NCBI RefSeq assembly: GCF_030814695.1
Contig: NZ_JAUSVL010000001.1
Span: 4,934,227 to 4,998,226 of the forward strand
DNA from: Oligosphaera ethanolica
GTDB lineage: Bacteria > Verrucomicrobiota > Lentisphaeria > Oligosphaerales > Oligosphaeraceae
Direction of reading: 5' to 3'
DNA: 64,000 nucleotides
The position numbers and the translations under genes are program-made. The notes beneath the pieces are model-generated. The model saw nothing but the letters and a program-made list of their open reading frames with translations, ran no database searches and was not told the origin of the DNA. Shown piece after piece: positions 4,369 through 38,396 of the stretch (position 1 is the first letter of the stretch; every line of letters starts with the position of its first letter).

Positions 4369-4537
4369 GGTTCCATTGCCCATTCGGCCCCAGTCAGCTG
4401 CGCCGACTGGGGCCGAATGGGCCGAGGAACACGGCCATAATGGGCGCGCTACCCAGGGCGGCGCGCGCCTTCGGCGCCGCTTGCCCTGGGCTGGTATGTT
4501 TCGCGCTTTCAGCGCTTCTGCCGCTTCGCGGCGAGGG
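4369..4537 (+). repeat. Dispersed hairpin repeat, copy D
   Basis: The intergenic region 4247-4907 has no gene. It holds a structured repeat shared with copies at 14007-14306, 17613-17912, 38031-38155 and 38232-38396. Hairpin 1 (4379-4421) has a 17-bp perfect stem, CCCATTCGGCCCCAGTC. Hairpin 2 (4452-4490) is bounded by CCCAGGGC/GCCCTGGG. Small hairpins GCGCT-TTC-AGCGC and GCCGC-TTC-GCGGC follow. This copy has no long terminal inverted repeats. Three base pairs of hairpin 1 differ from the other copies, each on both strands. Confidence 0.85.
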
Positions 4538-4576
4538 ACAGCTGGACCAGCTGGGCCGTGGCGAGGTTCGAAAAAA

Positions 4577-4680
4577 CGTCTTTTCGGTCATCGTAGTTGG
4601 CAGCAACGCGACCATTGAGCGCCTCGTTGGTGATGGTCGTGTCGTCTTTTCGGTCATCGTAGTTGGCAGCAACGCGACCA
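4577..4680. repeat. 38-bp direct repeat pair
   Basis: Two perfect 38-bp copies at 4577-4614 and 4643-4680, starting CGTCTTTTCGGTCATCGTAG, 66 bases apart start to start. They lie just downstream of hairpin repeat D in non-coding sequence. No function is evident. Confidence 0.9.
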
Positions 4681-4907
4681 CTTATCGTGGTAGACAACAC
4701 CTTGCGGCATTCGCTTCGCGTTTGCCGCCACGCGCTGAGCGTCAGCAGCAGAGGGCTCGGGCCGGGATTTTTACCGCTGTTTTCGCAGAAGTTATGGCTA
4801 TTTTGTGGCTAAAGAAAGGTCGAAAGCACGCTTACGGCGGGGAAATATCGTTTTCGGACGACCTCTAGATAAAGATATGTGCTGAACCTTTGTCCTGCCC
4901 GTTCTAC

Positions 4908-6182
4908 TCAGGGTTTGATGCGTCGGCATGCCTCGCGGGCCTTGGCGACGATTTCGTCTTCGCCGGGCACGTGATGATTTTCCATAAGGACCCGGCCATC
5001 ACAGATGACGCTGTGGACGACGCTGGTATCGGCGGCGTACACCAGGTTGGCGACGATGTTGTAGTCGCCGACCATGGCGGGGTGGTCGAGCTCCACCAGG
5101 ATGAGATCGGCCAGTTTGCCTTCGGCGACGACGCCGGCGTCCAGCCCGAAGGCCTCGGCGGCGTTGCGGGTGGCCATGTCGTACACCAGGCCGTCTTTGG
5201 CCACGGTGGGATCGCCGGACGTGGCCTTGCCCAGAAGGGCGACCAGCTTCATTTCTTCGAGCATGGACAGATTGTTATTGGAAGCGCAGCCGTCGGTGCC
5301 GATGGTCACGCGGCAGCGGCCTTTTTCCACCACGGCCTGAAAATTGAAGTTGCCATTGCTGAGTTTCATGTTTGAGGCTGGCATGTGCGAGATGACGGCA
5401 CCGCGTTCGCGGATGATGGCGATGTCGTCCTCGCTGAGGTGGACGCAATGCGCCAGGATGGTTCGTTCGCTGAGGACACCGAGCTGGTCGAGGTAGGCGA
5501 TGGGCGAGAGGCCGCCGTGGGCGTTCTGGCAATCCTGCACTTCGCGGCGGGTTTCTGATGCGTGGATATGCACGTAGCGGCCCTGTTCGCGGGCGTCGTC
5601 GGCCAGGCGGCGCAGGGTCTTCTCGCTGACGGTGTAAACAGCATGTGGCGCGTAGGAAATGCGGATGCGCTCGGGTAAACTGTCGGCCCTTTCCAGCAGT
5701 GGGCGGCTGGCATTGAGATTGCGTGGAAGAATCTCGCCGTCCTCGCCGCAGATCATGAGCATGCCGATCATGGCGCGCATGCCCATTTCGTCTACGGCAC
5801 GCAGCGTGGCTTCCGGTAGCCAGTACATGTCGTTGTAGAAGACCGTGCCGGACTTGATCATTTCGAGGTTGGCCAAGCGGGTGCCCGCGTAGATATCTTC
5901 GGCGCTGAGGCGTTCTTCGGCTGGCCAGATGTACTTGCTCAGCCAAGTGAAGAGCTCGAGGTCGTCGGCGTAGCCGCGCAAGACCGTCATGGCTGCGTGG
6001 GTGTGGCTGTTGTAGAACGCCGGCATGACCGCCAGGCGGCCATGGCCGTCAATCACCTGATCCGCTGGTGTCGTCGTCGCTGCCGCCACTGCCGGCGCAA
6101 TGGTGGCGATGCGGTTATTGACGATGTGCACATCGCAGGGACGCTGCTCGTGGATGACATTCTTCAATAGTATGCTGGTCAT
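4908..6182 (-). CDS. Amidohydrolase, MTA/SAH deaminase-like
   Basis: A 424-aa metal-dependent deaminase of the amidohydrolase superfamily, TRZ/ATZ-MtaD branch. These deaminate 5'-methylthioadenosine, S-adenosylhomocysteine or related purines and triazines. Visible metal and substrate residues: NSHTHAAM (HxH), APHAVYTVS, HIHASET (metal His), ILAHCVHL and the GTDGCASNNNLSM block with the metal-binding Asp. The C-terminal composite beta domain GKLADLILVELDHPAM is typical. Length matches the family, and it is probably cytoplasmic. Substrate cannot be told from sequence alone. The gene stands alone, convergent with the rhamnosidase-like gene and divergent from the beta-helix gene. Confidence 0.85.
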   Translation of the reverse strand: MTSILLKNVIHEQRPCDVHIVNNRIATIAPAVAAATTTPADQVIDGHGRLAVMPAFYNSHTHAAMTVLRGYADDLELFTWLSKYIWPAEERLSAEDIYAGTRLANLEMIKSGTVFYNDMYWLPEATLRAVDEMGMRAMIGMLMICGEDGEILPRNLNASRPLLERADSLPERIRISYAPHAVYTVSEKTLRRLADDAREQGRYVHIHASETRREVQDCQNAHGGLSPIAYLDQLGVLSERTILAHCVHLSEDDIAIIRERGAVISHMPASNMKLSNGNFNFQAVVEKGRCRVTIGTDGCASNNNLSMLEEMKLVALLGKATSGDPTVAKDGLVYDMATRNAAEAFGLDAGVVAEGKLADLILVELDHPAMVGDYNIVANLVYAADTSVVHSVICDGRVLMENHHVPGEDEIVAKAREACRRIKP

Positions 6183-6397
6183 GAGGGCGTTTATTCCAGA
6201 AAATATCTGCTTGTTTTGAGGCGGCCTTAGCGTGCGCGAAAGTGTAACGCTTCCTGCGGATAATTCCAGATTGATGCTCGAAAAAGCCTGCGCGGCGGCC
6301 TACATTACTCGTTTCCGCCGATGCCCTCCGGGCGGTGGTGAAACTGCCGCCGTGAGGAGTTTTTGTGTCCACAATCTCAGCCAACGAAGGTTTTTTC

Positions 6398-8734
6398 ATG
6401 CGTACATTTTGTCTGATGGCGATGACCTCGGTCTGTTTGTCGGCCTTGCCGGCGGCGGCGGACACCAGAATCATGACGGATTTTACGGACAGCACGCAGT
6501 TCGTACTCAACAGCGAGCACAGCAAGCTTGCCGCTGACGGCAAGACGCTGCTGATAGACAGCCGGGGGCTGTCGGCTGATGCCGTGTGGACCTGGCAGTT
6601 GCGGACGACGCCGGGGTTGCTGAAACCCGGCACGAACTACGTGGTGCGCTTCCGTTGCCGGATCATTGACCCGCTGCCGGAAGAGCGCTGTTTGCATTTT
6701 CTCAGCCGGCCATTCAGCTATGAAGGCCCCGAACACGATACCTTGCGCCGGAATATCTTCGCCGCGCAGCCCGAGCAAATGCAGAAGATGGCTTTCCGCA
6801 CCGGCACGGCGATAGACGACTACGCTTTTCAGATGCACACCCTGCGACGCATCCAGGCCGAAATTAGCGATTTCAGTATTGAGGAGGGCACCGGCGAGGA
6901 CTTCACGGCGGTGACAGCCGATGCCGTGCCCTACACCGGCGACATGGGCGTGCTGCCTACTGGTGCCAAGGAGTTCACCGTGGAACGCCCGCAGCCCAAG
7001 GCCGGCGCCGCCACGGTCCGCGCCACCGATTTTGGTTTCAGCGAAGACGCCGCGGACAACACTGCCGCGCTGAACAAGGCCATCAAACACTGCCAGGAGA
7101 TTGGCGCGGCCGTGCTGGAGCTGGCGCCTGGGACCTACCGCATGACGGCTGATGAGGAAGTCGTCTTCGATAAGATGAGCGATTTCACGCTGGACGGCAA
7201 GGGCGCCAAGCTGGTCTTCCTGAAGAAGCGCGGGTCCAATTTCGTGCTGCGGTTTTGCGAGCGGGTGGTGTTGCGCGATTTCAGTTTTGACTGGGACTGG
7301 GCGGTGGACCCGCTGGCCAGCGTCGTCGAAGTGGTTGGTGTCGGCGAGAACGCCGTCGATTTCAAGTTTGTGGAGTACGAGCGTTTTCCGCGGCGCGATG
7401 TACGCGTGGCCATCGTCAGCAGCTTTGATCCGACGACGCGGTCGGTGGGCATTGAGGGTGGTTTTGATCGCGGTTTTGAGTTCATCGTCGGCCGCAATGC
7501 CAAGCCTGAGACGGCATGGCTCAGCGACAACGTGCTGCGGGTTGCCGTCAGCGGCAGTAATCCCTTTCAGCCGGGCCAGTTATTTCGTATGCAGCATTAT
7601 TACTACGATCGCAACGGCATTGCCATGAGCAGCAATCGCCATCTGACGATTGAGGACGTGCACATCTATTCTTGCACTGGCCACGCCTTCGTCGTCAGCG
7701 GCACCCAGCAGTACTGGCAGTTCCTACGTGTGCGCATTGCCGCGCCGGCAGACGACCCGCGCCGCGTGATCACCTGCACCGCCGACCATTGCCACATTGC
7801 CCAGTCGCGTGGTTTTTTCAAGATGGAAGACTGCGAGTTCAGCCTGGGTGCCGATGACTGCCTGAACGTCCATGACAACTCGGGTTTTGCGCGCAAGACT
7901 GGCACGCATACGGTCACGACGCAGAATGTGCGCGGCATTGGCGCATATTCGCCGGGGACCATCGTGGAATTGCGCCAGGGCGATTATTCGCCGTCGGGCT
8001 TCCGTTCGGCGGTCACGGGCACGAAACCAGTGGACGCCAGCAAGGGCATACACGAAATCAGCTTTGTGGATCCCGTTCCGGAGCAGCTTTTTGACGGCTT
8101 CGTGATGTTCAACTGGACCTACGACTCACGCAACGTGATCATCCGCAACTGCTTCTTTCACGACAACCGGGCACGGGGGCTGCTGCTGCTTGGGAGGGAC
8201 ATCACGGTTGAGAACAACACCTTCCGCCATAACGAGATGGGCGCGATCAAGATTGAGACCGGCTACACTTTCAACGTGTGGAGCGAGGGCTACGGCGTGT
8301 CCAACGTCGTCATTCGCAACAATCGTTTTGACACGGTCAATCCCCGGGACGTGGGCAATGACGGCAAGGCGCGCGACATCTACATCGGCGTGTACATGAA
8401 GAGCGACCCGTCGGCGGAACGCACGCTGTACCCGATACTGTCCGATCTGCTCTTTGCAGGCAACACCTTCGTGGACACGTTCGGCCTGATCGCCTTTATC
8501 AGTTCCGCCGGCAATGTGACCTTCCAGGACAACGTCTTTGTGAACAACACGCCGCGGCGCAAGCCCTTGCCGTTCCGGGCGAGCTTCTTTGTGACCCACG
8601 CTACCGATGTGCGCATTGTCAACAACCGCTATGTGGCATCGTCGCTGGTGCCGGCGCCGGGGGTGTTTAGCGATCCAGACACAGTCAAGGGCCTGGTCTT
8701 TGCGGGCAATCGCATCGTCAGCGAGAAGGACTAG
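6398..8734 (+). CDS. Secreted beta-helix enzyme, GH110-like
   Basis: A 778-aa right-handed parallel beta-helix protein with signal peptide MRTFCLMAMTSVCLSALPAAA. After a ~200-residue N-terminal domain comes a pectate-lyase-type helix (DFGFSEDAADNTAALNKAI). Motifs fit GH110 alpha-1,3-galactosidases: TADHCHI with a candidate acid Asp, GADDCLNVHD with an Asp pair matching the proposed catalytic pair, FFHDNRARGLLLLG, and WSEGYGVSNVVIRNN. It probably removes alpha-linked galactose from glycans outside the cytoplasm. The ATG at 6398 is chosen over the upstream GTG at 6365 because it gives a clean signal peptide and has GAAGG at a good distance. The FAD oxidoreductase follows on the same strand. Confidence 0.7.
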   Translation: MRTFCLMAMTSVCLSALPAAADTRIMTDFTDSTQFVLNSEHSKLAADGKTLLIDSRGLSADAVWTWQLRTTPGLLKPGTNYVVRFRCRIIDPLPEERCLHFLSRPFSYEGPEHDTLRRNIFAAQPEQMQKMAFRTGTAIDDYAFQMHTLRRIQAEISDFSIEEGTGEDFTAVTADAVPYTGDMGVLPTGAKEFTVERPQPKAGAATVRATDFGFSEDAADNTAALNKAIKHCQEIGAAVLELAPGTYRMTADEEVVFDKMSDFTLDGKGAKLVFLKKRGSNFVLRFCERVVLRDFSFDWDWAVDPLASVVEVVGVGENAVDFKFVEYERFPRRDVRVAIVSSFDPTTRSVGIEGGFDRGFEFIVGRNAKPETAWLSDNVLRVAVSGSNPFQPGQLFRMQHYYYDRNGIAMSSNRHLTIEDVHIYSCTGHAFVVSGTQQYWQFLRVRIAAPADDPRRVITCTADHCHIAQSRGFFKMEDCEFSLGADDCLNVHDNSGFARKTGTHTVTTQNVRGIGAYSPGTIVELRQGDYSPSGFRSAVTGTKPVDASKGIHEISFVDPVPEQLFDGFVMFNWTYDSRNVIIRNCFFHDNRARGLLLLGRDITVENNTFRHNEMGAIKIETGYTFNVWSEGYGVSNVVIRNNRFDTVNPRDVGNDGKARDIYIGVYMKSDPSAERTLYPILSDLLFAGNTFVDTFGLIAFISSAGNVTFQDNVFVNNTPRRKPLPFRASFFVTHATDVRIVNNRYVASSLVPAPGVFSDPDTVKGLVFAGNRIVSEKD

Positions 8735-8826
8735 GGCGCTTTCGCCGCCGGCGCGGCAAACAATGCGTAATTGGGTGCAAGCAGTCATTAACTGAGCAAT
8801 AAACAGGGTTACAAAGGATGATTTCC

Positions 8827-12240: not shown

Positions 12241-12282
12241 GGGCGCGTTCAGCCAAAGGGACAACAGGAGGTCGGTGACAAC

Positions 12283-13620
12283 ATGGCGCATCTCATTCAT
12301 GCTCTGTGGCTGTTACCGGCGTTGTTTCTTGGGCTGAGCGTCAGCAGCGGTCGCTTCATCTACCTGGCCGGCTTTACGCCGTCGCTGCTGCTGGTCGGTC
12401 TGGCGATGGCCTTTGGACGGCGGCCGGTGCCGCGTGGCTGGGGCCTGGCCTTTGGTGGCTTGGCGGCGACCATGATCGGCGACTACTTCCTGGCCTATCG
12501 CGGTGCGCGTCTGGACTCCGTGCAGTTCATCTTTGGCATCTGCGGGTTTTCGCTGGCGCAGTGCTGCTGGATTGGCTTCTTTCGCGCTCATGGCCGCATA
12601 TCGTGGAAATGCGCGTTGGGCCTGGCGCTGGGCATCGGTCTGCTCTATATCGCGCGGCTAGTGCCGGCGACGCCCGGGGCGCTGCTGGTATTTTTCATTG
12701 GTCTGTATTCGCTGCTGTCGATCGTCAGCTTCAGCAGTGCCTGCGGGTTGAGCGATCGCCTGTCCGGTAAGAGCGCGTGGATCGTGGGTATTGGCGCGCT
12801 GCTGTTTTCCGATGTGATGATTGGCCTGGGCGCCATTCTCAAGATCCGCTATTGGGGGCGCTGGATTGGCGGTACGTACCTGCTGGCGCTGGTGGCCGTC
12901 ACGTTGGCCCTAGTGCAGGGTGCGCGTGGGACATCCTGTGGCCATGCCCGTCGGCGTCGCTACTTATGCTGGAGTCCCTATGTGATCTTCGCGGGTGCGC
13001 TGGGCGCGCTGGCCTGCTTTGTCGCCGCTGCCTGGCGTATGCCCGGTGGGCCCTATCAGCCGACTCGTCGCATGCTGAGCTATTTGGGACGGATTACCCT
13101 CAATGGCCAGCACTACGCACCCAGCCATTTTCTTTTCGGCTTTGGCCTAATTATCGCTGTGCTGGCCGTCGCGATCTTTTATCCGGCGCTGGGCGTGTTG
13201 GTGCGGCGACGCTGGCAGAAGGAGCTGATCAGCTGGTCTGGCGCAGTGCACTGCGCGGGCTTGCTGATCATCTTTTTTGTGCCGGAAGACCTGTCCATGC
13301 TCCAGCATAATGCCGGCTGCAGTCTGGCGGTCGCCGGCGCGGCCGTCACCGCATTGGTCATCTGCCGCTACAGTCGACGATTGGGCGTGAAAGTGCGCGT
13401 TGGCGCTTGTGCCTGGATGCTGGCGCTGACCGACGTATTCTGCACGTTCCTCCTCTTGCATAAACTGCGCGTCTGCCCTTTCGCGCCCTACGTGCCCACT
13501 TGCCAGAAGCTGCTCATCGTTACCTACCTGGCCTGGCTTGCCTGTCTCGCCGCCGCATTGGGGGCCACACGCAAAAAAGGCTTTGTTTCTCACGCGAAAA
13601 AGCAAAGCCGCGAGGGGTAG
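12283..13620 (+). CDS. YhhN/lysoplasmalogenase-like membrane fusion protein
   Basis: A 445-aa polytopic membrane protein. Residues 1-215 have about eight membrane segments and YhhN/TMEM86 features (MIGDYFLAY, FIFGICGFSLAQCCWIGFF, LLFSDVMIGLGAI). Members of that family include lysoplasmalogenases that cleave vinyl-ether lysophospholipids. Residues 230-435 form a second membrane module resembling DUF998/Frag1-type proteins (RRMLSYLGRITLNGQHYAPSHFLFGFG, HNAGCSLAVAGAAV). YhhN proteins are normally ~210 aa and stand alone, so this is a fusion. A strong AGGAGG precedes the ATG, 43 bases after the FAD oxidoreductase stop. Confidence 0.6.
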   Translation: MAHLIHALWLLPALFLGLSVSSGRFIYLAGFTPSLLLVGLAMAFGRRPVPRGWGLAFGGLAATMIGDYFLAYRGARLDSVQFIFGICGFSLAQCCWIGFFRAHGRISWKCALGLALGIGLLYIARLVPATPGALLVFFIGLYSLLSIVSFSSACGLSDRLSGKSAWIVGIGALLFSDVMIGLGAILKIRYWGRWIGGTYLLALVAVTLALVQGARGTSCGHARRRRYLCWSPYVIFAGALGALACFVAAAWRMPGGPYQPTRRMLSYLGRITLNGQHYAPSHFLFGFGLIIAVLAVAIFYPALGVLVRRRWQKELISWSGAVHCAGLLIIFFVPEDLSMLQHNAGCSLAVAGAAVTALVICRYSRRLGVKVRVGACAWMLALTDVFCTFLLLHKLRVCPFAPYVPTCQKLLIVTYLAWLACLAAALGATRKKGFVSHAKKQSREG

Positions 13621-13680
13621 GGGCGGACTGGTGTGTCGGCCCCCCTGATGAAGATCTCCGTAGCCGCACGGCATGCCGTG

Positions 13681-13851
13681 GTAATCGGTCAGTAACCATC
13701 CCGGTGGGGAAAACACCGGGGTGGTTACTCCTATGAAACACGCTGCCGCAAAGGTCGGCGGAAATCAAGGTCGGATGGCTGGGCGGCGACTGGCCGTGGG
13801 TTTCCTGCAAATTGTCCCAGCGAAGCGCCGGGGTGGTTACTGACCGATTAC
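13681..13851. repeat. Small element with 24-bp terminal inverted repeats (A)
   Basis: A 171-bp non-coding element. Its ends read GTAATCGGTCAGTAACCA... and the complement, matching over 24 bp with one mismatch. Next to the left end a second hairpin (13691-13728) pairs AGTAACCATCCCGGTG with CACCGGGGTGGTTACT. The first 11 bases, GTAATCGGTCA, are shared with elements at 14007, 17613 and 37635. No reading frame is present. Confidence 0.8.
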
Positions 13852-13860
13852 GACGGAGCG

Positions 13861-13972
13861 GACCGATCGGACCGATCGGACCGATCAATCGTCGGAGCAG
13901 TCGGAGCAGTCGGAGCAGTCGGAGCAGTCGGAGCAGTCGGAGCAGTCGGAGCAGTCGGAGCAGTCGGAGCGG
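13861..13972. repeat. 9-bp tandem repeats (GACCGATCG)3 and (TCGGAGCAG)9
   Basis: Three units of GACCGATCG (last base varied) at 13861-13887, then eight perfect TCGGAGCAG units and one variant at 13892-13972. A small hairpin GCGGAC-taat-GTCCGC follows directly (13970-13985). The same sequence type occurs at 30412-30528. Confidence 0.95.
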
Positions 13973-14006
13973 ACTAATGTCCGCCATCGCCAGTTTGACG
14001 GGCAAG

Positions 14007-14306
14007 GTAATCGGTCACCCATTGAGAATTAAGCCACAGAGCTTCTGGCTGAGTCAAACGCGCCCGTTTCCCTGGCCGCGAAGCGGCAGAAGCGCTGAAA
14101 GCGCGAAACATACCAGCCCAGGGCAAGCAGCGCTGAAAGCGCGCGCCGCCCTGGATACAACGGCGACTACGTCCGTGTTCCTCGGCCTCTTTGGCCCCAG
14201 TCGGCGCAGCTGACTGGGGCCAAAGAGGCAATGGAACTCACTTACATACCCGGGGTTGACGTCGGCGATATGTCTGTGCGTCCGTTCTCAATGGGTGACC
14301 GATTAC
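14007..14306 (-). mobile_element. MITE-like 300-bp element B
   Basis: Exactly 300 bp bounded by a perfect 22-bp terminal inverted repeat starting GTAATCGGTCACCCATTG. It has no coding capacity. The interior contains a full hairpin repeat in the minus orientation, with hairpin 1 at 14186-14228. It differs from the inverted copy at 17613-17912 at about five positions. No clear target-site duplication is visible. It would need a transposase supplied elsewhere. Confidence 0.75.
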
Positions 14307-14415
14307 GGGCGCAGCATCCCAGGTGACCAAAAACATCAGTGATTGCGCCGGAGGCATGACACGTCGCATCCCGCCTCACCAGGGTGAGGCGGGAAAGCCT
14401 GCTGAGCTCGTCTGA

Positions 14416-14467
14416 CCAGGGCTGGTATGCTTCGCGCTTTCAGCGCTTCTGCCGCTTCGCAGCGAGG
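14416..14467 (+). repeat. Partial hairpin repeat (copy G)
   Basis: Matches the 3' half of the dispersed repeat, from CCAGGGCTGGTATG through GCGCT-TTC-AGCGC to a slightly altered GCCGCTTCGCAGC. The sequence from 14307 to the next gene at 14670 holds nothing else recognisable. Confidence 0.75.
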
Positions 14468-14669
14468 TGAATGTTAGTCGACGACGAGGTCTCGCATAAA
14501 AGTGTGCTGGTGACGCGTAATGTTTTTGTGAGCTGGTCCTGGTATCAATGAGTAAGGGATTGCCACAAGCAACCTTCGGCTCGACAAGCAACGCTTGATA
14601 CCCAATATTAAATCGTAATGCTAAAACGTTCAAACGGCAATGTCGATTCCCCCGCCCCCTGAGGACACC

Positions 14670-16418
14670 ATGACTGGATACAATCCATCGCTACCCCTAT
14701 TGGTTGCACTGCTTGGTTGCTGCCATATAACAGCCCTTGCCGAACAAGTCACAACTTTAGGAAAGCTCCCTGGAATGAGGATGATCACAGTGGCCGCAAA
14801 CCAGGCACAAATGGCCGATGCCGATTATTATGGCCTATCCGGCCTGCAAAAAGCCATCCGGGACCTGCCTGAATTGTTGCCGGACAATCCTGCCGAAATC
14901 AGGCTCTGCGGAATGTTCCACGCCACGCTGGCTGATTACCTTCCCTGCGGAATCAATTCGGACAAAACGATCATTCCGCCCAAAAAACACCTCGTCATCA
15001 GCGGCACTGATCCGGATAAAGACGGCATTGTCGCAGTGCTGCCTGACGACCTCGATATTGCCTATCAGCAGTACTGCGTACTGACCACGCGCGTGTCCAT
15101 GACGCTGAAGGACCTCACCTTCACAGCCAAAAACATCCGCTACGTGCTCCATGTGTACGGCGGTAGCGCCACCAATGCCCACATCGTCATTGACGGCTGC
15201 ATGCTTCGCCACAACGGCAGCTCAGGCCTATCGTGGAAACGCTGGCCCCATCCGCGCCCCCTCGGCGTGGGCCTCTCAAGCGGCATGACTTTCATGGTCA
15301 AAAATTCTACGTTGTACAGCCACAACCTCGTGCCGATCACTCACGGTTCGAACCACCGTTTTACCAAACCAGCCTACGTTCTCTATGAGAATGTGGCCGT
15401 TAGCGCTGGCCCAGCAGTCAGTGACCTGGTCTACCTCTACTCGCAGGGATCCGCCACCATCAACACCATTGAGCTCAAAGGCGTCAGTGGCAAAGGCATG
15501 GTCCGCATCGGCGAGGGACAATGGACGCTCAGCAAAATCAGCGAGCAGCCGGCTTGTCACAATGAATTCCGGCTGATCATGCGAGACACGCCACCACGCC
15601 CATACCTGTATAACGCCAAGGGAACGGCGCTGAAAATTACGTCCAAAACCACCGGCCCTGGCTCATCAGTCCGCTTCGATGAGACATCCTCGGCCTTCCA
15701 CTGCCTGATAGCCAACGGCGAACAAACGGACTACGACTATCGCGACGGCGGTAACGCCCTCCCAGGCTACGCCGTCGGCCTCTGTTCCATCCAGGAAAAT
15801 CCCTACAGCTACCATAAGGGCAAAGTCATCACCGCCCTCGGCAAAAGACTCGGCGACTGCTCGCAAAACCACAAGGCGCTGGGCGTCACCATCAACGGCA
15901 AACACCATGACATCATTTTCGCAAAAAACTACGATGGCACAGACCCATTTCATCCCCCCGCATACGACAACGCCGCCATCATTGCCGATATGAACGCCGC
16001 TATCGGCAAGGTCGCCGAGGTGGCCACCTGCAACCCCGGCAGCGACTATTACCCCGAATTCGCCGGTCTGACCACGAAAATAAACCGCGACGACTCGGAG
16101 GTCCTCGCCGGCATGGGCGTGGTCTTCATGGGCCCCAACGGCTTCCGTAAAGCACGAGCCAGCGATGGCAAAATCGACGCCGTGGTCCTGGACAACGGCC
16201 GCGCCGGCGATCCCTGCAGAATCATCACCAGCGGCGAATTATGGGCCGAAGCCACCGGCCAGCGCTTCGCCGCCAAAGAACTTCACGCCGCCAAAAGAAG
16301 CCCCGGCGAAAAACTCGGCATTGCCAGCAAACACCCCGGTTACTTCGAACTCAACACCAACCCACCATGCCTGGAAGCCACAGCCGAAAATGTCCTCCAC
16401 ATCATCCCCCAACCGTGA
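14670..16418 (+). CDS. Secreted beta-helix-like protein of unknown function
   Basis: A 582-aa protein with signal peptide MTGYNPSLPLLVALLGCCHITALA. Residues ~60-330 have short hydrophobic beta repeats (MTLKDLTFTAKNIRYVLHVYG, HIVIDGCMLRHNGSSGL) suggesting a parallel beta-helix. The C-terminal ~120 residues (FRKARASDGKIDAVVLDNGR, RIITSGELWAEATG, KRSPGEKLGIASKHPGYFE) resemble small beta-rich decoration or tail-type modules. I do not recognise a named family. ATG 14670 is preferred over 14640 for its signal peptide and GAGGA, although the spacing is short. Codon use is more AC-rich than in the neighbouring genes. Confidence 0.55.
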   Translation: MTGYNPSLPLLVALLGCCHITALAEQVTTLGKLPGMRMITVAANQAQMADADYYGLSGLQKAIRDLPELLPDNPAEIRLCGMFHATLADYLPCGINSDKTIIPPKKHLVISGTDPDKDGIVAVLPDDLDIAYQQYCVLTTRVSMTLKDLTFTAKNIRYVLHVYGGSATNAHIVIDGCMLRHNGSSGLSWKRWPHPRPLGVGLSSGMTFMVKNSTLYSHNLVPITHGSNHRFTKPAYVLYENVAVSAGPAVSDLVYLYSQGSATINTIELKGVSGKGMVRIGEGQWTLSKISEQPACHNEFRLIMRDTPPRPYLYNAKGTALKITSKTTGPGSSVRFDETSSAFHCLIANGEQTDYDYRDGGNALPGYAVGLCSIQENPYSYHKGKVITALGKRLGDCSQNHKALGVTINGKHHDIIFAKNYDGTDPFHPPAYDNAAIIADMNAAIGKVAEVATCNPGSDYYPEFAGLTTKINRDDSEVLAGMGVVFMGPNGFRKARASDGKIDAVVLDNGRAGDPCRIITSGELWAEATGQRFAAKELHAAKRSPGEKLGIASKHPGYFELNTNPPCLEATAENVLHIIPQP

Positions 16419-16492
16419 GTCAGTAACAGCATGCAGAACCTTATCGGGCTCTTCTGCATCTTTCCGATCTCACGTCTTTACAGACAGGTAAT

Positions 16493-17296
16493 ATGCTAAG
16501 AATAACCTTCAAAACGCTTTGGGCCAGATGGTATTTCAGATGCCTCTGTTACGTCCTGATTATTGTTCCTGTCTTTACCATTATAGCCATTATCAACATG
16601 GACAAGCTCTTGTTTCCAATTCCCGATGCCACCTCAGCATCTGGTAATTGCCAACTTCGTTCAGAGACTGCAGTACTTGATGCCCTGTGGCTGGAAGGAA
16701 AAAAGGACTATCCAGTTATCCTCTACAGTCATGGCAATTATGAAACGCTTAAAGATATACGGCCTCTTTGTTATGAGTTCCGCTTACAGGGATATGGCGT
16801 TTTGGCGTATGATTATGCCGGATACGGTTCTTCTTCGGGAAAACCGTCGGCAAAGCAGGCATATAGCGATATTGAGTCGGCTTATGATTTTTTGATACAC
16901 GAGAAAGGAGTGCCGCCTGCAAATATCCTCATTGTCGGCTATTCTGTTGGCAGTGGCCCAAGCTGCCACTTGGCGTCAATGCACGACGCAAAGGCCCTTG
17001 TGCTATGCGCGCCACTTGCTTCAGCTATACGCGTGGTACTGCCATTTTCACTCCCGGGAGACAAATTCAAAAACATCGACAAGCTATCCACCCAAAAAAT
17101 ACCGGTGCTGATTTTTCATGGCGAAAAAGACGATGTCATTCCATATCGGAATGGCAAACTGCTGTATGACAACTCCCTTGGGCCCAAACACCTGGTGACA
17201 GTTCCAAATGCAAGCCATAACGATTTGTTTGACTGCCTCGGAGATGATTTCTGGAGCGAAATCAAATCCTTCCTTGCAGAAATCCGCCAATTGTAG
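16493..17296 (+). CDS. Alpha/beta hydrolase, BEM46/ABHD-like, membrane-anchored
   Basis: A 267-aa serine hydrolase with one N-terminal membrane anchor (YVLIIVPVFTIIAIIN). Catalytic features: the oxyanion HGN in YSHGNYET, nucleophile elbow GYSVGS, acid HGEKDDVIP and the His of NASHND. Such proteins are esterases, thioesterases or depalmitoylase-like enzymes; the substrate is unknown. The gene is visibly more AT-rich than its surroundings, suggesting transfer or relaxed composition. It starts 74 bases after the preceding gene. Confidence 0.75.
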   Translation: MLRITFKTLWARWYFRCLCYVLIIVPVFTIIAIINMDKLLFPIPDATSASGNCQLRSETAVLDALWLEGKKDYPVILYSHGNYETLKDIRPLCYEFRLQGYGVLAYDYAGYGSSSGKPSAKQAYSDIESAYDFLIHEKGVPPANILIVGYSVGSGPSCHLASMHDAKALVLCAPLASAIRVVLPFSLPGDKFKNIDKLSTQKIPVLIFHGEKDDVIPYRNGKLLYDNSLGPKHLVTVPNASHNDLFDCLGDDFWSEIKSFLAEIRQL

Positions 17297-17406
17297 GCCT
17301 TGCCAGAAGAAGCATCAAGGCATAAGCAAGGCACGTTTTGGGCACTTTCGCAGAGCCGGGCAGGATAGCGGGCTCAGGCATCTTGTTTCGCGACACTAGC
17401 GCATAT

Positions 17407-17444
17407 AAAAAAACAAGCCTGCCAGCAATAACTGACAGGCTTGT
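17407..17444 (-). terminator. Rho-independent terminator of tRNA-Ala
   Basis: On the minus strand ACAAGCCTGTCAG pairs with CTGGCAGGCTTGT (one G-T pair) around a TTATTG loop, followed by seven T. It lies 12 bases past the CCA end of the tRNA. Confidence 0.85.
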
Positions 17445-17456
17445 GATTTTGGTAAC

Positions 17457-17533
17457 TGGTGGAGCTAAGGGGATTCGAACCCCTGGCCTATACGTTGCGA
17501 ACGTATCGCTCTAGCCAACTGAGCTATAGCCCC
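17457..17533 (-). tRNA. tRNA-Ala (anticodon CGC)
   Basis: A 77-nt cloverleaf read on the minus strand. The acceptor stem GGGGCTA pairs with TAGCTCC, and its third pair is G-T, the G3:U70 identity element of alanine tRNAs. The anticodon loop TTCGCAA gives CGC, which reads GCG. The T-loop has GGTTCGAATCC. The 3' CCA is encoded, with discriminator A. Confidence 0.95.
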
Positions 17534-17612
17534 GGCGTATCTGAAAACGTGTTTAAATTACCCGCCACGGTCGCTTTTGCAAGCAGCGGCAGGCGAAAAA
17601 AACGCTTGCCCG

Positions 17613-17912
17613 GTAATCGGTCACCCATTGAGAACGGACGCACAGACATATCGCCGACGTCAACCCCGGGGATGTAAGTGAGTTCCATTGCCTCTTTGGC
17701 CCCAGTCAGCTGCGCCGACTGGGGCCAAAGAGGCCGAGGAACACGGACGTAGTCGCCGTTGTACCCAGGGCGGCGCGCGCTTTCAGCGCTGCTTGCCCTG
17801 GGCTGGTATGTTTCGCGCTTTCAGCGCTTCTGCCGCTTTGCGGCCGGGGAAACGGGCGCGTTTGACTCAGCCAGAAGCTCTGTGGCTTAATTATCAATGG
17901 GTGACCGATTAC
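17613..17912 (+). mobile_element. MITE-like 300-bp element C
   Basis: A second 300-bp copy of element B, in inverted orientation, with about five base differences. The terminal inverted repeats start GTAATCGGTCACCCATTG and match the opposite end over 19 bases. It contains hairpin 1 (17691-17733, 17-bp stem CCTCTTTGGCCCCAGTC), hairpin 2 (17764-17802) and the two small hairpins. It lies between the tRNA and the GNAT gene and may carry that gene's upstream sequence. It has no gene of its own; a frame running through it is a shadow. Confidence 0.75.
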
Positions 17913-18043
17913 CTGCGCCCTTGCATATTTCGTTTGTAGACGTTGTGCGCCGGCGGCCGTGCTATATTTTGCCGCGTTACTGGATGGCGGCGGCAGGTTT
18001 TCCGCCGCGGCACGATGAAACCCTAGCAATAGGACAAACGAGC

Positions 18044-18580
18044 ATGGCAGCACGGCAGTTGATGATGCGTTATCCCGTTGAACGCCTAGAGGCCCTGAGT
18101 GATCCGGTCTTTGCGCCTGACTTTGTGCTCAGGCCCTTTCGCGATGGCGACGAGGCCGGGTATCTCGCCTTGATGCGCGCAGCAGGCTTTCCTTGGGCTG
18201 ATGACATGATACAGACGGTGCAAGGCAAGGCCATGCCCGGTGGCATTCTCTTTGCCTGCGACGCCAAGACGGGACGGATCGCCGCTACGGCCATGGCCAA
18301 CAAATTCCGCCCGGAAACACCCGATGACTACGAATTGGGGTGGGTCGCGGCCCATCCCGACTACCGCGGCAAACAACTCGGCACGAAAATCTGCGCCGCG
18401 GTGCTGATCTTCTACCGCCAGGCCGGCGTCCGACACGTCGCCCTGCACACGGATGACTTCCGCAAGCCGGCGCTGGTGACCTATCTGCGGCAGGGATGGC
18501 AGCCCGTCATTGATGACGAGGAAATGGCCGCCCGCTGGCAGGCCGTCCGCGAAGAACTGGGGATACCAGCAGCGCCATAA
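18044..18580 (+). CDS. GNAT-family N-acetyltransferase
   Basis: A 178-aa acyltransferase. The N-terminal strand FVLRPFRDGDEAGYLALMR and the acetyl-CoA pocket VAAHPDYRGKQLGTKICAAVL (motif A, R-G-x-x-L-G) are clear, followed by VALHTDDFRKPALVTYLRQGW. The substrate is unknown. Start at 18044 with AGGA nine bases upstream; the longer frame reaches back into the repeat element and is not credible. A strong terminator follows. Confidence 0.85.
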   Translation: MAARQLMMRYPVERLEALSDPVFAPDFVLRPFRDGDEAGYLALMRAAGFPWADDMIQTVQGKAMPGGILFACDAKTGRIAATAMANKFRPETPDDYELGWVAAHPDYRGKQLGTKICAAVLIFYRQAGVRHVALHTDDFRKPALVTYLRQGWQPVIDDEEMAARWQAVREELGIPAAP

Positions 18581-26489: not shown

Positions 26490-26561
26490 GATGGCTCCAT
26501 GCGTGTTTCTGGTAGGCGACCGGAGGCGGTCGCTCGGAGTACCGGTGCAGACTTACGGTAG

Positions 26562-27266: not shown

Positions 27267-27299
27267 GAGGGCAGGTCCTTTCGTTCCGAACCGCGACCA

Positions 27300-30223: not shown

Positions 30224-30411
30224 GGGCTTCTCCGCCGAAAGGTGAACGAGTAGACAATAGGGCACCGATCAAATCGACGAGCTCGTAATGTATTGCTTGA
30301 TGCCGTATTTGAAAGATTAATAATGACAAATTATGACAAGACTGGCAATGTTTGGTAATTTGGGGGAGCGGACCGATCGGATTAGGGCGGACACATAGGT
30401 CCGCCACTACG

Positions 30412-30528
30412 CGGTCTGATCGGTCTGATCTTTTTGGTTATCGCGGACGGATCGGACGGATCGGACGGATCGGACGGATCGGACGACTTGATCGGTCTGA
30501 TCGGTCTGATCGGTCTGATCGGTCTGAT
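30412..30528. repeat. 9-bp tandem repeats (CGGTCTGAT) and (CGGACGGAT)
   Basis: In the 473-base gap between the Ehr operon and uppP. Two CGGTCTGAT units at 30412-30429, four CGGACGGAT units plus a variant at 30444-30488, and four CGGTCTGAT units at 30493-30528. Just upstream, GGAGCGGACCGATCGGA (from 30365) also occurs at 13855, and a hairpin GGCGGAC-acatag-GTCCGCC lies at 30386-30404. The rest of the gap is AT-rich towards 30300 and has no gene. Confidence 0.95.
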
Positions 30529-30646
30529 CATGTCCTACGCGCACTTACTGTCGGGTGAATGCCGGTGACATTGCAGAATGGGGTCGGGTGCTTAGATTAA
30601 AGGCCGGTTAACGGCAGCCTGCCACATTTATGGCCTGCCGGATTGC

Positions 30647-30669
30647 GGCCGTGTTGTCACGGCCTTTTT
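30647..30669 (+). terminator. Intrinsic terminator-like hairpin in uppP leader
   Basis: GGCCGTG-TTGT-CACGGCC followed by TTTTT, ending 28 bases before the uppP start codon. No upstream plus-strand gene needs it. It could end a small RNA, act as an attenuator, or precede the real uppP promoter. Confidence 0.7.
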
Positions 30670-30696
30670 CATTTTTCCTACGTATATGGAGCGTTC

Positions 30697-32699: not shown

Positions 32700-32882
32700 G
32701 GTCCTCCAGCTGATGTGAGCGCGGAAATGTGAAGGCCAATACACTACCACGTCTTGCCTGCTTGGCAATCGCGGGAACGGGGCGAACGAAATGCGATGTT
32801 GCCTGCTTGTAAAAGGCGGTCGCTGTAGCACATTCACGGCTTGATCATCCCGTTCCCTATTATCCATTCATGGAGTTACGAC

Positions 32883-34196: not shown

Positions 34197-34217
34197 GCGA
34201 GTGGTCTGGGGAATGTC

Positions 34218-34352
34218 TTACGCCGGGATGGCCAGCAGCGCCAGGGGATTGCGCTGCGTTATCTGTTCGATGTCGTCTGCTGTAGCGCCACGAGCCAGCA
34301 GGGCCGGGATGACCAGGTCGTGCACCACGCAGAGGCGCCCGGCGGCCGCTTG
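34218..34352 (-). pseudogene. C-terminal remnant of phosphotriesterase-like gene
   Basis: On the minus strand a short frame reads RLCVVHDLVIPALLARGATADDI...QRNPLALLAIPA and stops with TAA at 34218-34220. This matches the last helix and C-terminus of phosphotriesterase-family hydrolases (LRxxGVxxEDIxxIxxxNP). It breaks off upstream into a degenerate hairpin repeat near 34341-34395, so only the tail of the gene survives. It could also be the end of another amidohydrolase. Confidence 0.45.
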
Positions 34353-34395
34353 CCATGGGCACTTAGGTCGCGCCTTAGGCGCTGAATACTTGGCC
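34341..34395 (+). repeat. Degenerate hairpin repeat copy
   Basis: Resembles the 3' half of the dispersed repeat: CGGCCGCTTGCCATGGGCAC, then GCGCC-TTA-GGCGC in place of GCGCT-TTC-AGCGC. It borders the truncated gene remnant. The following 34400-34650 is AT-rich and probably contains the promoter of the Sel1-repeat gene. Confidence 0.4.
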
Positions 34396-34654
34396 CGCTG
34401 TCACGAGGATGGAAATAATATCTGCTCTCGACTACCAGCGTGGGTAATGGCACCCACCGCTGAACGAAAGAATCTGTAAGCATGAAAAATAACGCGCGCC
34501 GAATAGCAAAGAACGCCAATGCATAATATGTCATAATTTGCTATCATTCAGATAATTACACATTGAATATAAGCGTTTTCCCCGCTAGTTTTATGGCGGA
34601 TTCCGGCAGGTGTCGGGACCGCACTGATGATGTCTGTACGCGAGGAGGACACGG

Positions 34655-36556
34655 ATGAACAAATGGTCGCCGGCAAAGAAATTTTCGTTGCGTCGGGCTA
34701 TGCGCCTGGCTATGCGTTTCAGGGACGAGGTAAAGCGGCAAGAATCCCAGCGGCCTGCGCCGATGAAGGGCATGTTGTGCGTAGCCGTGACACTTGAAGA
34801 TCGTCTTTATGGCGATCTGTTGACGCGTTATTGCGAGCACTGGCTGGAAATTGGCGCCGACGCGGACAATGAGCGCGAGTGTCTGCGCAGCGGTCTGCGC
34901 CGGAGTTGGGAGCAGGCTGCTGCTGGCGATGCCGATCGGCTCTTTGAAATCGCCTTGCTTTTTTTCTCCAGTTCGCATCGTCCCGACCATGACTTGGCGC
35001 AGGAATGGTGCCGGGAATGCGCTGACCATTACGAAAACCGGCAGGATGTCGAGGCGCTGTTCAGAATGGCTTTGCTGTGCCAGGCGGGCTGGGGGCGGCA
35101 GGCCGACAGTGGCCATGCCGTCACCCGTCTGCGTGCCGCCGCCGAAGCCGGTCACGCCGATGCGGCCTACGAAATGGGCGTGTTCTGCTGGGAAGGCCAT
35201 GAACTACCGCAAAGCGACAGCGAAGCCGAAAAGTGGTTCCGGCTGGCGGCCGAATGGGGCTCGCCGCTCGTTTTGCAGTACATCTACTCGCTGGGCGTGC
35301 GCTACCTGATGGGGCACGGAGTCGAAAAGGATCATTCCCGCTCGCGGCGGTGGTTCGATCTGGCTGCACAATTGGGCCATCCCGAGGCTGCAGAAGTCAT
35401 GGCGATGCACGACTATCCTGATTGCTCACTGACGGCAGCGGAGCAGGAACGGCAGCGTTATTGGGAGAAACACCGGCTGCATGACGAGGAAGATCGCGCC
35501 CAAAGTGGCGATGCCGACGCTCAATTACTCCTGGCTTTGCGCTACGAACGGGGCGAGGGCGTCGAGGCTGATGCCGCCATGGCAGCCAAGTGGTTTGAGG
35601 AGTCCTTCCGCGGCTTCTTGTTCAAGGCGCAGCATGACGATCCCGAAGGCGATGCCGCGCACAGCCTGGCGCAGTGCTATCTCTTTGGCCAGGGCACGGC
35701 CAAGGACTACGCCAAGGCCGCTGAGTGGTTCGCCAAGGCCGGCGAGGCGGGCAATTTTATGGCCTTCACCGACCTTGCGCTCCTGCTGCTGGATCACGAC
35801 CGCGTGACGGGCATGACGCCGCTGCAAGTCGCTATCTGGATCGACCGCGCTGGTAAACTCCACAATTTTGACGCCGTCGACATGCTCTGTGACTACGCGA
35901 TTCGGCGCGGAGCTGACTACGAATGGCGCAAAGAGGTCACCGAGGAAAGCTGCCGGCTGGCGATCGAATGGTACAGCGTCGCGGCCAATGCGGATGACGT
36001 CTCGGCCCAGGTCAGTCTGGCCCAGCTGTATGAGTCCGGCCATTGTGGTACGCCAGATTTGGCGCTGGCCGAGTTCTGGTATAGCAAGGCCGCCATTCAG
36101 AATCAACGCCTTGCCAACGGTGGCAACCCCTACGCCCAGCGTGATCTGGCGTGCCTCTACGAAGATGGCAAAGGCGTCAGACAGGATGACGCCATGGCCA
36201 AAATGTGGTTCAAAAAAGCCGCCGCGACTTTTCGTGAACGCGCCGAAAAAGGTGATGCGGCCGCCCAATGCGAATTGGCCGACATGTTCTGCTGCGGCGC
36301 CGGCGTTGATTTTGATCCTGAAGAAGCCGAAAAGTGGTACCAGTCAGCTTGTGCCAAAGGCTCGGAACAGGCGGAAAAACACTACGGGAACTTCTGCATG
36401 AAGATGGGCTGCATCTGCCTCGGGCTTGATGATCCCGACAGCAACTCCGTTGACCGCCATGCCGCCGTAAAATGGCTGCAAAAGGGGGCCAAACTTGGCA
36501 ATACCCACGCCATAGACGCTCTCGACTACCTGCAACAGCAAGATATCGGCGACTGA
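34655..36556 (+). CDS. Sel1-repeat (TPR-like) protein
   Basis: A 633-aa helical repeat protein. At least six Sel1-like units are visible, e.g. YEMGVFCWEGHELPQSDSEA, SLGVRYLMGHGVEKDHSRSR, SLAQCYLFGQGTAKDYAKAA, and DLACLYEDGKGVRQDDAMAK. Such proteins are scaffolds for protein-protein contacts. No signal peptide is visible; the first 35 residues are basic. A strong GAGGAGG precedes the ATG. It stands alone, so its partner cannot be inferred. Confidence 0.85.
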   Translation: MNKWSPAKKFSLRRAMRLAMRFRDEVKRQESQRPAPMKGMLCVAVTLEDRLYGDLLTRYCEHWLEIGADADNERECLRSGLRRSWEQAAAGDADRLFEIALLFFSSSHRPDHDLAQEWCRECADHYENRQDVEALFRMALLCQAGWGRQADSGHAVTRLRAAAEAGHADAAYEMGVFCWEGHELPQSDSEAEKWFRLAAEWGSPLVLQYIYSLGVRYLMGHGVEKDHSRSRRWFDLAAQLGHPEAAEVMAMHDYPDCSLTAAEQERQRYWEKHRLHDEEDRAQSGDADAQLLLALRYERGEGVEADAAMAAKWFEESFRGFLFKAQHDDPEGDAAHSLAQCYLFGQGTAKDYAKAAEWFAKAGEAGNFMAFTDLALLLLDHDRVTGMTPLQVAIWIDRAGKLHNFDAVDMLCDYAIRRGADYEWRKEVTEESCRLAIEWYSVAANADDVSAQVSLAQLYESGHCGTPDLALAEFWYSKAAIQNQRLANGGNPYAQRDLACLYEDGKGVRQDDAMAKMWFKKAAATFRERAEKGDAAAQCELADMFCCGAGVDFDPEEAEKWYQSACAKGSEQAEKHYGNFCMKMGCICLGLDDPDSNSVDRHAAVKWLQKGAKLGNTHAIDALDYLQQQDIGD

Positions 36557-36658
36557 ATTGGCGGGCGAAGGGCGGCGGGCACATCTCGTCCAGGCGACAG
36601 GAATGTCGCGCCACAGAGACGGGAAATGAGCCGGCACTGGCGTTTCCGCCGGCTGCTG

Positions 36659-37516
36659 TCAGCAGTCGGCGCTGTCGGGTACGGCGCCGGTGTCGCTGAC
36701 GGCACCGGCGGCGAGGCGTTGGCGGAGGACTTCGTAGAGCATGATGGTCGTGGCGGTGGCGACGTTGAGTGAGTCGGCCTCGCCCATCATGGGCAGCCTG
36801 GCGCAGACATCAGCGGCATTCAGCCAAAAGTCGCTGAGGCCGAATTCCTCGGCGCCGACGACGATGGCGACTGGCCCGGTCATGGCCACGGCGGTGTAGA
36901 TCGTGTCGACGTGGGGCGACGACGCGATGACACTGACGCCGCGTTGCTTTAGCCACGCGGCGGCAGCGGCCGACGTCGTTTCCGCAATGGGCATGGTAAA
37001 GAGATTGCCGGTGCTGGCGCGCACGACGTTGGGGTTGAAGAGGTCCGTGCGCGAATCGCAGAGAATGATGGCGCTGACGCCGGCCGCATCTGCCGAACGG
37101 AGGATGGTGCCGAGATTACCGGGTTTTTCGATCTGTTCGCAAACCAGGTAGAATTCCGGCCGGTCGCTGCGAACAATTGCCTCAAGGTCGGCTAGTCCGC
37201 GATGACGTTGCGGACCGATGCCGAGGAGCCCCTCGGGTCTGTCGCGATAGGCCATTTTGTGGAAGGCCGGCGCCGAGACCTCGTAGGCCGTCGCCCCACG
37301 CTGTTCGAGTTCGGCGATCAGCGTGCCTTCATTTTTACCCTGGAAGAGCTCGGGGCAGACGTAGAGTTCGTCAATGGGGTAATTGCCGGCGATGGCGCGG
37401 GTGAGGGCACGATAGCCTTCAACCAGCACCTTCTGATCGCGGTCACGATCACGGCGATCGCGCCATTTGACGATCTGCTTGATCTTGGGATTCTGGACGC
37501 TGCTGATTTGGATCAT
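36659..37516 (-). CDS. TrmH/SpoU family RNA 2'-O-methyltransferase
   Basis: A 285-aa SPOUT methyltransferase acting on rRNA or tRNA with SAM. The N-terminal substrate-binding domain includes KVLVEGYRALTRA. Then come motif 1 QIEKPGNLGTILRSADAAG, motif 2 VVGAEEFGLSD and motif 3 LPMMGEADSLNVATATTIMLYE with the knot. The Arg of motif 1 and Asn of motif 3 are present. The target nucleotide cannot be told. It lies convergent with the Sel1-repeat gene. Confidence 0.92.
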   Translation of the reverse strand: MIQISSVQNPKIKQIVKWRDRRDRDRDQKVLVEGYRALTRAIAGNYPIDELYVCPELFQGKNEGTLIAELEQRGATAYEVSAPAFHKMAYRDRPEGLLGIGPQRHRGLADLEAIVRSDRPEFYLVCEQIEKPGNLGTILRSADAAGVSAIILCDSRTDLFNPNVVRASTGNLFTMPIAETTSAAAAAWLKQRGVSVIASSPHVDTIYTAVAMTGPVAIVVGAEEFGLSDFWLNAADVCARLPMMGEADSLNVATATTIMLYEVLRQRLAAGAVSDTGAVPDSADC

Positions 37517-37646
37517 GATTGGACCTGGGGGGATAACGGCGGAATTTTCTGCTTAACGCGGACGGTCTTGCGCCTTAATGTAACGCCAGGACCGCACCGC
37601 GACGGCCGCAGCGACGCGAAAAGTCGAGACGGCAAGTAATCGGTCA

Positions 37647-37716
37647 GCCATAGATAATAGCCGGGACCGTGGTGACGCCTGGGACCGATGGACTAATTGG
37701 CGACTGTGCGCTGGGG
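37647..37716. repeat. 70-bp direct repeat, copy 1
   Basis: Begins GCCATAGATAATAGCCGGGA and is identical over 70 bases to 38482-38551. It is preceded by GTAATCGGTCA (37635), the terminal motif of the inverted-repeat elements. The following 37717-37850 is a degenerate GGACT/GGGACTGTGG-type simple sequence, and 37850-38030 shows no feature. The whole gap 37517-38710 lacks genes. Confidence 0.95.
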
Positions 37717-38030
37717 TGAGGACTCGTGGACTCATGAGGCATGATCCCATGGATTGGACTGTGGGGACTTTTGGGACTGTGGGGAATGACGCCTTGGACG
37801 CCGGGGACTGCTTGAGGACCTCTTGGACTCTTGGGAGCGCCGCCGGCCCTGGGTTACTGATCCGGGCCGAAAACCGCTGCCATGCGATGGCGATGTTTTT
37901 GCGCCGTAGGCGCTTAACCATGCTTAACCCCAGGCTTCAGCCCATATGCGTTAAGTTGTTCTTTTTTTTCGATTTTTTATCCAAAAGTCCCCTTTTCAAA
38001 GCGACAAAGGCGGCCTGACATGTCTTTCCC

Positions 38031-38155
38031 GTAATTGGTCAGCCATTGATACCAGCCATTCCTGCGGCCTTTGGTTTTCAGCACCGAAGGTGCGCCCTAA
38101 GATAGCCCAGGGCAAGCGCCCGCAGGGCGCGTCGCCCTGGGTAAGGTGCCCCATC
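38031..38155 (-). repeat. Hairpin repeat, copy F (minus orientation)
   Basis: Starts with GTAATTGGTCAGCCATTGAT, close to the terminal motif of the MITE-like elements. It holds hairpin GCACC-GAA-GGTGC (38081-38093) and hairpin 2 (38106-38141), bounded by CCCAGGGC/GCCCTGGG with an inner GCGCCC/GGGCGC stem. Hairpin 1 is absent. It faces copy E across about 75 bases. Confidence 0.7.
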
Positions 38156-38231
38156 CCAAAAGAGCCCTGAAGGGGCGGCCTAAAAGACCTGCGACGAAGG
38201 GTCACAGCGCAAAATTGCCGCAGCAATCAAT

Positions 38232-38396
38232 GAGTTCCATTGCCTCTTTGGCTCCAGTCAGCTTCGCCGACTGAAGCCAAAGAGGCTGAGGAACACGGAC
38301 CAATATGGCGCGCTACCCAGGGCGGCGCGCGCCTTCGGCGCCGCTTGCCCTGGGCTATCTTAGGCCGCGCTTTCAGCGCTTCTGCCGCTTCGCGGC
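38232..38396 (+). repeat. Hairpin repeat, copy E
   Basis: A full copy of the core repeat. Hairpin 1 (38243-38285) has stem CCTCTTTGGCTCCAGTC with one uncompensated mismatch. Hairpin 2 (38316-38354) has an inner GCGCC-TTC-GGCGC. GCGCT-TTC-AGCGC and GCCGC-TTC-GCGGC follow. The connector after hairpin 2 is CTATCTTAGG, also found inverted in copy F, instead of CTGGTATG. Confidence 0.85.

Follow-up and report, generated by a model that had tools for sequence, protein, structure and literature searches.

Acido-Lenti-1 (AL-1, Rfam RF01687), a family catalogued as a candidate small RNA (sRNA), would be better described as a mobile DNA hairpin resembling repetitive extragenic palindromic (REP) sequences that also serves as an intron target and is not an RNA gene, a reading to which we assign a probability of roughly 0.7. 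The repeats that led to this reading lie in a 64,000-nt stretch of the Oligosphaera ethanolica genome (5,729,305 bases, one contig), referred to here as the window. Three observations carry it. In relatives of this organism, AL-1-like hairpins flank short genes for Y1 (HUH) transposases, more often in inverted than in direct arrangement; this genome also carries the AL-1 unit within elements of ~300 bp whose ends resemble those of IS66 and which show target duplications of 7-9 bp; and AL-1 is interrupted at one fixed point by a group IIC intron, whose exon-binding site 1 (EBS1) matches this point in four of five copies. Mobilization of AL-1 by a Y1 transposase is what we infer from these sequence arrangements.

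AL-1 is part of a high-copy chain of hairpins

The preliminary description of the window reported five substantial copies of a dispersed hairpin repeat together with several fragments, all of which are present. An Rfam scan of the window locates AL-1 within three of these repeats, at 4452-4516, 17764-17828 and 38316-38380, with scores of 39.4-45 bits that place them in the family at a gathering cut-off of 37. Genome-wide, at least 146 AL-1 matches are found at E<=0.001, 64 of them above the gathering cut-off, and this count is a lower bound, since 150 of 2280 first-look candidates were scored and 146 of these passed; 14 control genomes yielded no match at the same E value. The repeated unit extends beyond the Rfam model and consists of four hairpins (H1-H2-H3-H4), of which 131 core copies were found in DNA from 100 of the genome's 104 AL-1 clusters. 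H1 is a 17-bp stem closed by GTTCC/GGAAC, H2 is formed by CCCAGGGC and GCCCTGGG and contains an inner stem, and H3 is of the GCGC-TTTCA-GCGC type. The H2-H3-H4 part of three window copies is predicted to adopt the same fold as single-stranded DNA.

The copies differ in their surroundings. The core unit at 4370..4537 (+) has no detected terminal repeats, while the copy at 38031..38500 (+) represents a second backbone type with left terminal repeat GTAATTGGTCAGCCATTGA and a right end that is not settled. Within the latter, an inverted AL-1 at 38080-38112 (-) precedes the core unit with AL-1 at 38316-38380 (+), and the segments 38031-38155 and 38232-38396, although present as first reported, are probably two inverted AL-1 halves and not independent copies. 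This arrangement is found repeatedly: of 31 close AL-1 pairs (<400 bp apart) in the genome, 28 occur in the order minus then plus, 23 of them at a spacing of 217-270 bp and five at 26 or 58 bp, where one palindrome may have been matched on both strands. A GCACC-GAA-GGTGC hairpin, previously thought homologous to hairpin 2, does exist in the inverted half, where it reads GCACC-TTC-GGTGC on its own strand and occupies the place of hairpin 3. Because several different backbones carry the same AL-1 core, the core unit is modular. In some copies (e.g. L007, L008, L018 and window 38470-38485) the usual terminal repeat gives way to another recurring end, GTTTCATAGGAG(C)CAT; the outer flank of this end is often identical (GCGGCAGCG), and for this reason the end may belong to a larger repeat.

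AL-1-like hairpins accompany short Y1 transposase genes

Y1 genes of ~150 aa in related genomes are commonly bracketed by AL-1-like hairpins (e.g. L352, L353, L350, L355). RF01687 matches at E<=0.05 were obtained in 10 of 20 Y1 loci (17 matches in 55.5 kb) versus none in 20 group II intron loci (46.7 kb) of the same 40-genome set; the 20 loci, scanned from a total of 34, favor the short single-gene type and mostly omit IS200-like and long proteins, such that this proportion does not apply to Y1 genes in general. A stem pattern gives the same picture, occurring 29 times in Y1 loci (95 kb) and once in controls (204 kb), a comparison weaker than that of RF01687 matches at Y1 and intron loci in that its controls come partly from more distant genomes. 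When the two flanks of each Y1 gene were compared, inverted similarity exceeded the 95th percentile of cross pairs at 17 of 27 loci and direct similarity at 8 of 27 (medians of 56 for inverted, 23 for direct and 21 for cross pairs; three further loci were skipped as their flanks were too short). Between genomes, Y1 similarity correlates with flank similarity (rho 0.59 over 28 loci and 371 pairs; 0 of 2000 permutations), although gene and flanks may have been inherited together for causes other than hairpin recognition. Genomes with such a Y1 gene also hold more AL-1, with a median count of 7 (n=23) versus 2 in genomes without one (n=17; p=0.0096).

The proteins form a recognizable type. Among 30 Y1 proteins the HUH motif is seen in 28, WQ..YG in 23 and Y---Q--HH, the signature of TnpA_Y1 subclass 1.2, in 27, and in the remaining three the matched stretch stops before or inside the position of the last motif. 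Solved structures nearest to Y1 by sequence include the ISHp608 transposase, a member of IS200/IS605. Five Y1 matches are present in the O. ethanolica genome, and the one nearest to AL-1 (L332) encodes 150 aa with DHVH, WQ and YIDGQMEHH, features that assign it to TnpA_Y1 subclass 1.2. PMC6006769 describes this subclass as ~148 aa in length with DH[IV]H, WQ and Y---Q--HH motifs, lists no REP for it and notes that IS200 end structures are generally missing. Two AL-1-like hairpins lie within ~320 bp upstream of the L332 gene, on one side only, and link this genome's own Y1 gene weakly to AL-1. Another Y1 type, with proteins beginning MSYT or MSHT, has different GC-rich hairpins nearby (L333, L348, L361), exemplified at L333 by GCGCCCGGAGGGCGCC with CCCCGGG, which suggests further Y1-hairpin pairs.

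AL-1 units are carried by elements with IS66-like ends

Two spans of the window that had been reported to contain repeat copies, 14007-14306 (-) and 17613-17912 (+), do contain core units and prove to be complete ~300-bp elements bounded by 19-nt terminal inverted repeats (GTAATCGGTCACCCATTGA). The terminal repeat pattern, allowing <=2 mismatches, has 238 matches in the genome, whereas a reversed-pattern control has none. It flanks 30 of the 131 core copies on both sides, and 17 of these 30 are bordered, at the ends themselves or immediately beside them, by exact duplications of 7-9 bp. The IS66 elements of this genome share ends of the form GTAA.CG.TC.CCC, namely GTAAGCG(C/T)TCGCCCAGCCC, and two of them (L038 and L042, ends read by eye) are bordered by 8-bp duplications; the ends of the ~300-bp elements agree with the IS66 ends at 11 of 14 positions, again by eye. 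With GTAA ends, a target duplication of ~8 bp and a length too short for a transposase, these elements have the properties of IS66-type miniature inverted-repeat transposable elements (MITEs). They differ from IS66-family MITEs in one respect: a pattern scan placed the MITE's own ends at none of the genome's nine IS66 matches.

The flanks of the window MITEs are CGGGCAAG and GGGCGCAG for the first and CTTGCCCG and CTGCGCCC for the second, and these are crosswise exact reverse complements. Because the 8-bp flanks are exchanged at both ends, the sequence probably records two MITE insertions with 8-bp duplications followed by inversion of the 3.3-kb segment at 14307..17612 via the MITEs.

In other genomes, the flanks of 30 AL-1 loci were tested for inverted ends accompanied by duplications of 7-9 bp, and three loci gave hits (L164, L166, L182). 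The locus from a genome of the same genus, G002, carries the MITE's own ends (L164), and the arms of the other two are unrelated. At the 27 of those 30 loci that come from other genera, the test found no MITE ends around AL-1.

A group IIC intron occupies a fixed point of AL-1

The fragment at 1575..1627 (+), present as described earlier, is the 3' exon of a group II intron: it starts directly after the intron end at 1574 and consists of the 3' half of an AL-1 unit, from CTGGGCT onward. The intron begins at genome position 4933871, 356 bases left of the window, and spans 1,930 nt, such that its 3' part fills 1..1574 (+) of the window; it starts with GTGTG and ends with CCCCATCCGAT. Its domains 5 and 6 (D5/D6) are recognized at 1499-1574 (+; RF00029, Rfam scan), and its reverse transcriptase/maturase of 427 aa is encoded at 188..1471 (+; TIGR04416), the nearest solved structure by sequence being the GsI-IIC reverse transcriptase (6ar1, E 6.5e-100). 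Six D5 matches are present in the genome, one below cut-off, and five of them mark full-length introns, each exactly 1,930 nt long. Every one of the five follows a 5' exon that consists of AL-1 and ends in GCC, and four continue into a 3' exon CTGGG..., the remainder of the AL-1 stem; once joined, the exons of these four give matches of 94-100% over 81-91 bases to AL-1 copies that lack an intron. One intron (L050) is inserted into the opposite strand of the hairpin.

The IIC-type protein, the hairpin upstream of the insertion point and an intron-binding site 1 (IBS1) of 3-4 bp, for which pairing fails in one copy (L047), identify this intron as group IIC. Such introns, according to PMC3898094 and PMC7923331, recognize a DNA hairpin together with short IBS1 and IBS3 sequences at terminator or attC targets. 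The O. ethanolica intron differs from other group IIC introns in that its target is the AL-1 repeat and in that its EBS1 is GGC in four of five full-length copies, whereas the relatives read carry TAG, GAG, CGT or, in L294, TGG. EBS1 was located by a pattern restricted to introns close to the window intron; among ten distinct relatives with the pattern, the 5' exon ends in CTA or CTC in nine, with a hairpin visible in most of these, and in GCG in one (L059). Introns of more distant relatives often follow T-run terminators. Pairing between EBS1 and the exon was evaluated in 15 of 16 introns (L292 was omitted as it shares a contig with L052) and extends over 3-4 contiguous bases in 13 of the 15, a total reached by 2 of 100000 shuffles; with one intron per pairing type, the corresponding figure is 10 of 720. 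The two failures are L294 and L047. On the basis of these sequences, the IIC intron appears to have been retargeted by a change of EBS1.

The public description of the AL-1 motif holds that it is sometimes found near group II introns for unexplained reasons. At L049 an AL-1 match below threshold (35.8 bits) runs into the end of the intron D5 match, and an overlap of this kind would explain the association. Similar hairpins are located within ~90 bases downstream of some relatives' introns (L143, L160); of these L143 was scanned, and it has no RF01687 match. In genome G018, group II introns of another class (L134, L154) terminate immediately ahead of hairpins of the CCCCAG...CTGGGG type, which may represent a second link between introns and hairpins.

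Weighing the mobile-hairpin reading against its alternatives

Several observations weigh against AL-1 being a mobile hairpin shared by these systems. With regard to Y1, all RF01687 matches at Y1 loci fall below the gathering score of 37 (best 36.2), for which reason those hairpins are called AL-1-like here and are not certified AL-1. The paired Wilcoxon comparison of inverted and direct flank similarity is not significant (p=0.086), the hairpins at this genome's own gene (L332) do not reach E 0.05 with the Rfam model, one flank of that gene does not resemble the other (inverted score 18), and two draft genomes rich in AL-1, G002 (>=112) and G036 (32), have no such Y1 detected. No terminal repeat was found for 55 of the 131 core copies in the flanks examined, which extend to ~480 bp at most and are complete for 58 of the 131. 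With regard to the intron, the association with AL-1 is drawn from the sequence of one genome, and AL-1 was seen at none of the readable intron junctions of other genomes (29 D5 loci, none continuing CTGGG; 26 of 80 loci; 28 loci). The sixth D5 match (L051) is a 5'-truncated intron piece at a site outside AL-1, the 3' exon of L047 differs and is not AL-1, its EBS1 TGG cannot pair with the GCC exon, and pairing fails in the relative L294 as well. Finally, AL-1 may be transcribed.

Some of these points can be read to mean that the repeat is simply a MITE that captured a hairpin by chance, the Y1 association being coincidence or a shared taste for intergenic hairpins. The best-preserved copies here are indeed MITEs with duplications, the resident Y1 gene is weakly linked, and AL-1-rich G002, in which no Y1 of this type was detected, includes a copy with MITE ends. 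We consider this unlikely, given that MITE ends were not found around AL-1 in the 27 loci from other genera, that AL-1-like hairpins occur at Y1 genes and at none of the intron loci, and that Y1 similarity correlates with flank similarity.

A fundamental question is whether the hairpins are maintained as RNA. RF01687 is typed as sRNA in Rfam, the 2010 table marks AL-1 'y' for probably RNA (PMC2864571), and the covariation of H1 is strong. H1 was parsed in 119 of 131 core copies, which represent 49 distinct stems (12 copies were unparsed), and the controls were shuffles of the 3' arm and slid stems. Watson-Crick pairing is observed in 96.6% of H1 cells, compared with a mean of 86.2% and a maximum of 88.5% in 500 shuffles, and falls to 26-39% when the arms are slid against each other (four versions). 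Compensated double changes occupy 56 cells versus a shuffle mean of 11.5 and maximum of 20 (500 shuffles), where cells are not independent events, many copies being related. The compensated changes first noticed in hairpin 1, such as CCTCTTTGG to CCCATTCGG, are thus borne out as one of several examples. Recent duplication, which had been named as an observation that would undermine the structural interpretation, accounts for part of the set, with 14 listed copies near-identical at 95-100% (query included), but covariation persists in the wider, diverged set.

The uncompensated H1 cells bear on the nature of the folded molecule. If the transcribed strand folded as RNA, G·U cells should be better tolerated on it than A·C cells; of the observed cells, 12 are G·T, 14 are A·C and 2 are of other kinds. 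The near equality of G·T and A·C favors a DNA hairpin, or correction of one arm by the other, over a strand-specific RNA. Moreover, at least 146 matches in a single genome, many of them within transposable elements with target duplications or at intron target sites, the inverted order of 28 of 31 close pairs and the presence of similar hairpins beside transposase genes all argue against a genuine structured non-coding RNA whose hairpins are kept by selection on RNA, and we regard that explanation as improbable. The possibility that the hairpins constitute a terminator family, prompted by their intergenic and GC-rich character and by the frequency with which IIC introns follow terminators (in PMC3898094 and among relatives here), is very remote, as the window copies read lack a T run after their stems and none of the 8 terminator-like sites called in 13500-18500 is a hairpin of the two MITEs scanned there. 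Among the structured-RNA, terminator and REP-like possibilities raised in the preliminary description, the REP-like one is best supported, by the hairpins that flank Y1 genes in relatives; the terminator reading is rejected for the two MITEs, and the RNA reading agrees with the Rfam label and is weakened by G·T/A·C parity.

Relationship to known systems and a model for spread

We propose that the AL-1 unit would first have been spread by a Y1 transposase acting on the folded single strand, and that copies caught between the ends of an IS66-type element would later have been moved by its transposase. The intron would read the inner hairpin and GCC as a DNA target, much as IIC introns do at terminator and attC hairpins, and the arms may stay matched during drift because the folded single strand is selected for or repaired. 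In its most specific form, this model makes AL-1 the REP of an unrecognized REPtron class built on TnpA_Y1 subclass 1.2, and a hairpin common to three unrelated mobile systems in one lineage: Y1, IS66-type MITEs and an EBS1-switched IIC intron that uses the repeat as an extragenic landing site. We regard this specific form as evenly balanced between right and wrong.

The comparison with REPtrons (TnpA_REP, RAYT) is favorable in the high copy number of the hairpins, the inverted pairs and, in relatives, the AL-1-like hairpins that flank a low-copy Y1 gene. It is less favorable in the one-sided arrangement in this genome and in the low Rfam scores of relatives' flanking hairpins. The class 2 REPtron motif Y---NP is not seen, 27 of 30 Y1 proteins having Y---Q--HH instead, and no GTAG/CGTC foot tag was noticed in the flanks viewed, where no systematic search was made. 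TIRtrons (TIRYT) are similar in that their Y1 genes carry long inverted repeats, some of them repeated in the genome, a likeness drawn by description only from PMC3733652, which also places Y1 genes flanked by terminal inverted repeats in Acidobacteria and elsewhere. Use of REPs as occasional group II intron sites has a precedent in Pseudomonas putida, with 2 of 9 (PMC1525189).

Read in this way, a small-RNA catalogue entry becomes a testable mobile DNA element, a Y1 subclass described without a partner DNA gains a candidate for one, and a mechanism is offered for the link between the AL-1 motif and group II introns. If true, the three-system REPtron model would also account for the motif noted near group II introns, and the intron adds an example of a IIC intron apparently retargeted through EBS1. 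Proposals built on AL-1 being a regulatory RNA, such as the protease regulation suggested in PMC13298647, would need re-examination. The novelty of this reading of AL-1 is provisional, our coverage of the literature being partial.

Other features of the window

Two further fragments are present, an AL-1 unit 3' fragment at 14416..14467 (+) and a degenerate AL-1 3' half at 34341..34395 (+). The 3.3-kb segment between the MITEs contains an alpha/beta hydrolase gene, a 592-aa open reading frame without a Pfam match and a tRNA gene. Just upstream of the first MITE, tandem GTCGGAGCA 9-mers form a run at window 13900-13970.

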